DNA from: a virus
IMG/VR virus record: IMGVR_UViG_3300032288_006065
Coordinates: 1 to 24,147 of that record
Length of the DNA: 24,147 bases
Direction: 5' to 3' (one strand)
Numbering within the stretch: the first letter of the stretch is position 1; each line of letters begins with the position of its first letter. The notes below the pieces were generated by a model, which was given only the letters and a program-made list of their open reading frames with translations, did not search any database and was not told the DNA's origin. The position numbers and the translations under genes were made by a program. Shown piece after piece: positions 16,845 through 20,027 of this stretch.

Positions 16845-17462
16845 TTACTCCGGCAATCCACCCGGTGGAAAGTAAGTCAACAACGGATCGCCGCCGACTA
16901 TTCGATTTCCAAGCGATGTGTCAACTTGGACCGTTCCTTCAAGATCCACTCCGAGTGCTGTTGTGTTGGCTTGTTGTTTTTGTGCGGTTGCACCTACAAA
17001 TACGGTGCTGTTTTTAAACACCGCAAAATTGCCGCTGGTCAACGAACCGGTTCCGCCTGCGTATCCTGTGACCGACGATTCGAAAAAACTTCCAATCGAA
17101 GCATCCGAAATGTAAAGTCCATACGCCTGACCCGTATAAGAACCGTAAACACCACCTTCTATTTGAGATTTATTTAAATTGAATGTAGAAGCATTTGAGC
17201 TTACGATTCCGTATCTTGTGTCAACTATTTTCGCATTTGACACATCAATATGACTTGTTTCAACTTGAAATCCACGAACGCAAGATATAACTTCAAACGA
17301 GCTTGCGGTGGATCCCGAAACTCCTTGACCGATAAGTTGGCTGTTGTTTCTGACTGTAAAACCAGAAACACTGGCATCTTTTACTAAAACCTTGTCGGTA
17401 AATCGTACAGTGCTTCTGCCTTCAGCATACACACCCGTTTTACAATTGTTAAAATTTGGCAT
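16845..17462 (-). CDS. Beta-helix protein continuing the tail fibre
   Basis: A protein of 205 residues, repetitive and beta-helical. Rungs of the form 'F..C..GVYAEGRSTVRF', 'VLVKDASVSGFTVRNNSQLIG', 'FEVISCVRGFQVETSHIDVSN', 'IVDTRYGIVSSNASTFNLNKSQIEG' and 'GLYISDASIGSFFESSVTGYAGG' are visible. The last rungs of the upstream fibre ('[33 protein letters not shown]') belong to the same pattern, and this frame is the same frame with one TAA between. It has TAAGG as a ribosome site, formed by that stop, 7 nt before the ATG. The C-terminus ends 'TYFPPGGLPE'. It may be a separate fibre subunit that docks on the upstream helix, or the distal half of one interrupted gene. Confidence 0.8.
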   Translation of the reverse strand: MPNFNNCKTGVYAEGRSTVRFTDKVLVKDASVSGFTVRNNSQLIGQGVSGSTASSFEVISCVRGFQVETSHIDVSNAKIVDTRYGIVSSNASTFNLNKSQIEGGVYGSYTGQAYGLYISDASIGSFFESSVTGYAGGTGSLTSGNFAVFKNSTVFVGATAQKQQANTTALGVDLEGTVQVDTSLGNRIVGGDPLLTYFPPGGLPE

Positions 17463-17471
17463 TTTTAAACC

Positions 17472-20027
17472 TTAAAAGAGAGTATCGTTTGTATCACCAA
17501 TATGGCTGCGATCGCTAACAATACCATAATTTAAATCGGTGAACCAACAACGATCGCTGAACGTTGCAACTGCACCATTTTTAAGATACACACCAATACC
17601 AGTGGAACCAGCTTGCCATCCCGTAAAAACTATATCGAGATTTGCGGTAGCACCGGTCATACCAAAAGCCACTGTCTTGAATGGTGAATTGAGTGTCCAA
17701 ATTGAACTTGGCACAACACCCGAAGTTCCACCAGTCAAACTAAACACCAAATCGGCTACCTTTATGGAACCGGTAACACCAGCAACAGTTCCGGCAATTG
17801 ATGTTGTTCCTGTTGCACCAGAATATTTGTTGAGAACCGTGACATCAAATACATATCCGGTGCTTCCGGTTGCCGCCAACACACGATGCGCACCACGCAA
17901 GAAATCTGAATTTACGTTGTTATCGAAAATCAAATAATCGTTGGAATAAATCGGAGTCACAGTTGATGCAGTTTTGATGCAACGGAATCCAACATAGTAC
18001 GATCCAGCGGATCCGGTTACGCTAAAGTTACCGCTTATCGATTCAACAAAATTGGTTAGAGTGTTGTCGGGATAAACGTTGACTTTTCCGGGAACATCCG
18101 ACATGATATTATCGGAAAGAGTGATTGTTTTATTTACATTGTAAGTTCCATACTGGAACTGGAAATTTAAGTTTCCAGCAGGTCCAATCACATACGAAGC
18201 ATTATCGGATGTCAAAGAGATAGACGAATATGCTGATCCTGATGCGGCAATCAAACTGTCTCTTGGGTGCAAAACATAAAGATTGGAATTGGCAACAGTA
18301 TTATCTGGGTTCAAATCTGAAATATTTGATACTTCAGAATTTGTTGGTGCCATCAAAGGAACATAGATATCGTTGCCAAAAAACAGTTGAGTTCCTGCGG
18401 AATAACCATGTTCGTTTGGTTCGTTAAGTTGCTCGACTGGCGTTAAAGATCTATCGTCAGAATCGATAGTGTTGCGTGTGTATATGTAAAGATTTCCGTT
18501 ACCAGAATATCTAACAACATCTGCTTTTTGATAATCTAACCCTGTTTGCCAAACTCCACTGAAATTCAATCCGGTTGCGCCAGTGGCACCTGTTGAACCT
18601 GTAGAACCGGTTGGACCCGTAGAACCGGTTGGACCCGTAGAACCGGTTGCTCCTGTTGGTCCGGCAGGTCCGGTTCCACCCGTAGACCCTGTTGGACCGA
18701 TCGATCCGGTTGGTCCAATTTCTCCTTGAATACCTCGCGCTCCTGCTGGACCAACTTCGTAAGTGGTTCCACGGAACGGAAGATAGCGTATAATCCAATT
18801 TGTGCTCAAATACGGAGGAATGTTATCGTGACCTTGAGCAGAAACGTTATTTTGATCGCTAAGAATACCAGTTGCAGCATCTCTGAGTTCCGAAACAGGA
18901 ATTGCTTTTATTGTTCCAGATGCAGCAGTAACTCCAGGAAGCGACGAGGAACCATTTCCTGTCACACCAATAACATGCTTGTGTGGCGGCAACTGATTGG
19001 CCACAAGCGCAACTTCTTCGGCACCACCAGCAAAACCAATTGGACGATTGGTTAGATTTATGAATCCTGTTTGACCGCCACCTATTACGGTTCTACCACG
19101 AAGGTCTGGAATAAAAAATTTGTTGGAAGATGTTGATCCTATATTTTCGAACGAGTGAATTTCAACATATGTTGGTGTCGTTGTTAATCCACTTCCTGAT
19201 AATTCTGTGTAGATGATTGAAAATTGACATGTGTTGGAACCCGAAGCACATCCAGTTACGGTGATAACATGTTTGTCGGTAAATGTATCGCTGGGTTCGG
19301 ATCGTTGTGGCCATTGCAACAAGAAACGATCGCCGTTTTCGAAAAGGTGATTTCTGGATACAGCATCACCAGCATCTTGGAATGTTATACTACCAGTAAC
19401 ACCGCTTCCCGTTATGGAAACTGTGATGTAATATTGATCGTTTAAAACATCTTCAAGTTGACCCCAACTGCTTTCGGTGTCTTCACCTTTTTCAAGTGCA
19501 TCACCGTTGCACAAACGCCAATTTGTTGGAACTTGATCGTAAGTTCCGGCAAATGGAACTATCGATCCGATTGGTGTTGCTATGCTGGTTCCGACTGGAT
19601 CCGAAACCAATGATGGTAAAACTATTGCTTGGTTTCCGGTCAATCCAATCAAAAAAGGATTGACATAACTGTTTCCGGCAGATGGACCTGTTGCAGTTGC
19701 TGCACCAGAAACGCCATCGCTAACATAAAACAATCCACCCGAACTGTAAAGATTGTAAGCAGGATCGAGTGTAAGTTTTCCGGAAATAACCAACACAAAA
19801 CTAGAAGCATCTGCACTTTCAACAACACCAATCGTATTGGCTCGAGCTAGAGTTGTGGCTAAAGCGCGATCGTAAGTACCATCGGATTTACGATAGAGTA
19901 CTGTGCCTGGAGTAAAATCGTTGCTTTGTGTGACACTCAATCGAATAGATTGACCATCACCGGCTCCGGTTCCTCCACCCGTTATCGACAAACCACTAAG
20001 TACTACATCCAGTGCGCTAAATGCCAT
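17472..20027 (-). CDS. Tail fibre with collar domain, collagen-like stalk and start of a beta-helix
   Basis: A protein of 851 residues. Domains in order: an N-terminal attachment-like region (1-150, '[18 protein letters not shown]'); a phage tail collar domain (about 153-350) with '[25 protein letters not shown]', '[16 protein letters not shown]' and the metal-binding 'PPHKH' near 343-347; 'NWIIRYLPF'; a collagen-like Gly-X-Y run (about 425-487, mostly GPTGST); a carbohydrate-binding-like '[26 protein letters not shown]'; and a long beta-rich region whose last 40 residues look like the first beta-helix rungs. It stands where T4 carries gene 12 and wac, just before gp13, so it is a short tail fibre or whisker equivalent and a probable receptor-binding protein. 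A C-terminal chaperone domain is not seen. Confidence 0.88.
18601..18649 (-). repeat. 18-bp tandem repeat inside the collagen-like stalk
   Basis: Plus-strand unit GTAGAACCGGTTGGACCC occurs twice without a change (18601-18618, 18619-18636) and continues for 13 bases more. It encodes six residues (Gly, Ser, Thr, Gly, Pro, Thr in rotation) of the Gly-X-Y stalk. Near-identical units extend on either side, so the stalk can lengthen or shorten in six-residue steps by slippage. Confidence 0.85.

Follow-up and report, generated by a model that had tools for sequence, protein, structure and literature searches.

The beta-helix is the fold of many tailspikes and enzymes, and small genes that follow fibre genes often encode chaperones. 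Splitting a fibre among genes is already known, since the long fibre of T4 is assembled from four gene products (PMC12892980); splitting one rung would be new. In T2/S16-type phages a separate protein, gp38, caps the trimeric gp37 fibre (PDB 6F45; PMC6851490, PMC12892980). It is present as one copy per trimer, with a helical bundle carrying tryptophans for attachment and a polyglycine sandwich. Our survey of the literature on divided and two-gene fibres, which covered few subscription journals, found no case like the one analyzed here, in which a fibre is probably completed by two separately made chains, the second protein docking on the open end of the first and finishing the tip.

The window, that is, the whole stretch of DNA analyzed, is a 24,147-base record of an uncultured virus whose minus strand carries part of a T4-like structural module; all coordinates below refer to that strand. 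Its portal is approximately 52-53% identical to the portals of cyanophages and a Stenotrophomonas phage, and the head-tail connector genes, identified via PHROGs, follow just after the fibre gene. Upstream of the fibre gene is a glycosyltransferase family 2 gene (20038..21165), whose stop overlaps the TAAGG site serving the fibre gene and whose product is a possible modifier of the fibre or of its collagen-like stalk. This gene gave weak TPR-like matches and is present in the relatives too. A 157-aa gene (16369..16842), part of the conserved context, follows the second fibre-related gene and precedes the head-tail adaptor gene. Elsewhere in the window, the large terminase is divided over two ORFs (10356-11840 and 11841-13247). 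The first encodes the N-terminal portion of the terminase together with what resembles the start of an intein (CITGDAVV) and an HNH/NUMOD3 region; the second opens with an intein-like C-terminal part (ending HSYIANNVQISN before CIVLDEYAY), followed by the remaining terminase. The pair resembles a fractured gene carrying a divided intein. Two further ORFs (5255-5836 and 4785-5246) lie between the portal and prohead protease genes and had no match in PHROGs or Pfam; the start of the former would be TTG, with a 22-nt overlap into the preceding gene.

A preliminary description of this DNA reported an 851-aa fibre ORF, a 205-aa ORF in the same frame, a TAA at 17472-17474, a 9-nt spacer and a TAAGG ribosome site, and we confirmed all of these. 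The fibre gene occupies 17472..20027 and the second gene 16845..17462. In the TAAGG (17470..17474), which is kept in all relatives, the fibre stop overlaps the ribosome-binding site of the second gene, and the spacer from stop to ATG (17463..17471) is 9 nt in near relatives. The same description cautioned that being in frame is weak evidence, and this was upheld: the junction between the portal and a 113-aa gene likewise has a 9-nt gap and a TAAGG, and of the window's 22 gene junctions 7 are in frame, against about 7 expected by chance. A TAAGG overlapping the stop is used at 3 of these 22 junctions.

Scans of viral contigs showed that the stop-TAAGG-ATG junction recurs in nine further IMG/VR contigs; these come from six metagenomes, and some are near copies of one another. 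Compared with the window, the second protein is 90-76% identical in these contigs and the fibre 91-55%. Alignment-based rescans returned the same contigs plus a tenth, L025, which was reached via the neighbouring head-tail adaptor gene. In L025 the beta-helix part of the fibre is about 61% identical and the second protein 51%. The comparison with related fibres proposed earlier, as one gene or as two, gave two genes in all ten of these contigs, and no fused single-gene relative occurred among the contigs found in the scans. The preliminary description would have taken a homologue of the 205-aa protein located away from the fibre as evidence against a divided helix; a search for such homologues found none, and every homologue directly follows a fibre. 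Phage genome records searched with either part gave no useful relative, bacterial and archaeal genomes contained no relative of either part, and among more distant phages neither beta-helix part had a homologue in the 25 listed regions that precede the head-tail adaptor gene. A search with the collar region of the fibre found two contigs (L117 and L118) that are pieces of the same fibre, along with distant fibres without a beta-helix.

On these comparisons, coding by two genes is a conserved design with two polypeptides as its product. A read error or recent break of a single gene, one of the possibilities raised earlier, is excluded because the same stop occurs in nine other contigs with fibre identity down to 55%. 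The rungs do continue over the stop, as described below, which favours one gene having been split, but with the same layout in contigs at 55-91% fibre identity, a second gene that has its own ribosome site and is under purifying selection, and no fused homologue, we give this explanation practically no weight.

The junctions also bear on readthrough. Among near relatives there are three distinct junction sequences, in which TAA is followed by GGT-TTA-AAA, GGT-AGC-AAA or GGT-AGT-CAA and then ATG. The codons preceding the fibre stop vary freely at silent sites, the spacer codons vary between lineages, and beyond TAAGG the alignment of the relatives contains no conserved sequence around the fibre stop. 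In L025 (a single contig) the junction is TAAGGAAACACATG: TAAGGA and both proteins are retained, the last fibre residues are altered, and an 8-nt spacer places the second gene in a different frame. Because the 8-nt spacer shifts the frame, the frame is not conserved and the two proteins are necessarily made separately in L025; the common frame elsewhere is incidental. Occasional readthrough of the TAA, yielding a longer fused fibre and thereby receptor-binding variants, had been suggested on the strength of the common frame, which the nine other contigs share with the window. The frame of L025 means that readthrough is not the conserved mechanism. Together with lineage-specific spacer codons, silent-site freedom before the stop, a stop context confined to TAAGG and in-frame junctions at chance level, it contradicts the proposal of long and short forms, which we consider very improbable.

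Substitution rates (NG86, saturated pairs left out of the interpretation) were calculated for both coding parts. For the second gene, dN was 0.067 and dS 1.34 between the window and L010 (dN/dS about 0.05), and dN was 0.17 and dS 1.25 between the window and L015 (dN/dS about 0.14). For the last 237 fibre codons the corresponding values were dN 0.015 and dS 1.01 (L010), and dN 0.19 and dS 1.78 (L015). By this measure purifying selection acts on both the fibre and the second gene. A comparison of L010 with L012 further revealed that the fibre middle is 53-71% identical, versus 96-100% in the beta-helix part, the junction and the second gene. The edge of this exchange, as read from the alignment, precedes the beta-helix and is not at the gene boundary. 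Since the near-identity spans that boundary through the second gene, the beta-helix part and the second gene are inherited together. L010 and L014, identical across the fibre, show a local cluster of differences towards the 3' end of the second gene, where identity drops to 93-97%.

The fibre consists of an N-terminal part, a collar, a collagen-like stalk, a variable module and the first part of a beta-helix. Pfam Collar (PF07484) matched residues 154-181 at 25.4 bits against a cut-off of 24, and the region containing it (approximately residues 126-423; 18759..19652) is the sole fibre part with distant relatives. The Gly-x-y stalk (approximately residues 420-487; 18567..18770) was evident from the sequence and from Pfam, where Collagen (PF01391) exceeded the cut-off, and it suggests a trimer. 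Profile searches of solved structures with the fibre also matched mainly collagen. Alignment and sliding identity placed the greatest variability in residues 488-614 (18186..18566), which are swapped among near relatives, differ strongly even between L010 and L012, and are without a match to any family; we regard them as a candidate host-range module. A W..G..Y...DVV.Y.GN..YIY motif in these residues is reminiscent of carbohydrate-binding modules. The C-terminal beta-helix part (residues 615-851; 17475..18185), delimited by conservation and the model, is 75-97% identical in near relatives.

The second protein scored 17.7 bits against NosD (PF05048) in Pfam, under the cut-off of 23.6, and a profile of five second-protein sequences had no PDB match at E up to 1 among solved structures. 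Structure prediction of each part and of the joined protein had been proposed as a check. Modelled alone, the second protein reached a mean pLDDT of 39, too poor for a fold search. For the joined chain, in which the TAA was read as a residue for modelling only and which is absent in nature, pTM was 0.65 and mean pLDDT 53, with rungs across the boundary; all models were built from only five to seven sequences. Joining raised the block pLDDT over residues 1-100 of the second protein to 64-89, from 28-54 when modelled alone. The best ten-residue blocks flanking the junction had pLDDT 74-84 before it and 74-89 after it, and confidence fell to 39 in the loop bearing the stop, which lies between strands 2 and 3 of one rung. 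The first three rungs of this series are IGVYLK/VATF/CWF, then YGIVSD/SHIG/[stop loop]/NFNN, then TGVYAE/VRF/VLVK; the last three are SGFTVR/LIGQ/FEVI, RGFQVE/SHIDV/KIVD and YGIVSS/TFNLN/QIE. AlphaFold may prolong a repeat whatever chain is joined, and this applies to the joined model too.

Foldseek with the joined model returned beta-helix proteins by E-value with poor superposition. A second look at the Foldseek list with VIA, which covers the listed folds only, gave Z 18.8 for the Sf6 tailspike 2vbe (rmsd 3.4, 254 aligned, model range 18-456, spanning the junction) and Z 18.7 for a Paenibacillus alginate lyase (rmsd 3.3, 229 aligned). The top rows were tied in Z and included AlgE6, AlgE4, NosD and pectate-lyase folds, many with ranges that span the junction. 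The joined chain is thus predicted, with moderate model confidence, to be a right-handed parallel beta-helix of pectate-lyase-like fold with three-strand rungs. A shared beta-helix fold says nothing on function.

By the joined model and the rung register, the divided rung takes its strands 1 and 2 from the final two fibre strands, YGIVSD and SHIG (residues 834-845; 17493..17528). Its strand 3, by the joined model and a rung test, is PNFNNCKTG (residues 2-10; 17433..17459), the strand with which the second protein begins. In that test the profile was built from intact rungs only and the blocks were picked after viewing the model, so that the following ranks are indicative. Against 6,988 background windows, the last 15-residue strand-1/2 block of the fibre ranked 1 in three sequences (the window, L010 and L015), 11 in L013 and 44 in L025. 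Out of 7,120, the opening strand of the second protein ranked 30 (window and L010), 230 (L013 and L015) and 11 (L025). The earlier claim that the rung pattern continues past the TAA therefore holds above chance, within the limits of indicative ranks. The joined model and the rung test agree in predicting that the gene break falls at a turn within a single rung of the right-handed beta-helix.

We hypothesize the following route to the finished tip. Ribosomes would stop the fibre at the UAA, and the overlapping UAAGG site would start the second protein 8-9 nt further; we infer that translational coupling probably yields both proteins in similar amounts. According to the models, the fibre would leave its last right-handed rung open after strands 1 and 2, and the 205-aa protein would supply strand 3, about four further rungs and the C-terminal end of the helix. 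Because the collagen stalk implies a trimeric fibre, we infer three of each chain, with three copies of the second protein docking on the three open ends to form a tip that probably touches the cell surface. The conservation of the second protein, together with a peak of fibre variability at residues 488-614, weakens the case for the second protein as the lone host-range determinant; recognition may be located in those residues or shared with the tip. A two-chain helix was among the earlier readings, and the conserved two-gene layout, the purifying selection and the rungs modelled as continuous all support it. The narrower claim, that throughout the known lineage two proteins, each translated separately, build one beta-helix rung between them and the tip is added as its own part by beta-strand completion, stands in our judgement at an even balance.

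Two other roles for a separately translated protein were weighed. It could be a separately folded tip adhesin or cap with its own interface and no shared rung, as gp38 sits on gp37. This fits its constant position directly after the fibre, its separate translation, and the precedent of T2/S16-type phages, whose tip protein is separate and has a beta-helix of its own (PMC12892980, PMC6851490). We nevertheless think it unlikely, given a first strand predicted in register from residue 3, far lower model confidence alone than joined, fibre and second protein that are complementary within one rung, and no attachment domain like the helical bundle of gp38. Alternatively, it could be a folding helper of the fibre tip that departs afterwards, in the manner of the Alteromonas V22/A5 tail-fibre chaperones, which are thought to cap fibres transiently and are likewise separate proteins dedicated to the tail fibre (PMC10579305). 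Unlike them, the second protein extends the fold of the fibre itself in the joined model, and profile searches of Pfam, PHROGs and NCBIfam gave no chaperone family for it; we consider this role quite improbable.

Two-part fibre tips are already known, and joining through completion of a shared rung would be an unusual mode of beta-helix assembly. If true, the junction offers a site, used in nature, at which to divide a beta-helix into two pieces. For annotation it is a warning that the following gene may encode the distal end of a fibre, which can then be overlooked.

Compared with described fibres, the window fibre resembles PF07484 collar fibres in having a collar domain and in its place before T4-like head-tail connector genes. 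Its distant collar-bearing relatives (L120-L123) finish right after the collar, so that the collagen stalk, the beta-helix and the second gene are extras here. The Sf6 tailspike 2vbe, the cyanophage Pam1 tailspike 7eea and CBA120 TSP2 share the right-handed beta-helix of the joined model; these are single chains, in contrast to the two chains of the window lineage. The second protein was rejected as a member of the T2/S16-type gp38 family: it has no tryptophan and no gp38-type glycine-rich (polyglycine) motifs, and in the joined model it begins with strands and not with a tryptophan-bearing helical bundle. The gp37-gp38 pair of T2/S16 is still the nearest working analogue, in that a separate protein finishes a trimeric fibre tip and the tip proteins of both systems have beta-helix parts, but in the window the gene boundary seems to fall inside a rung.
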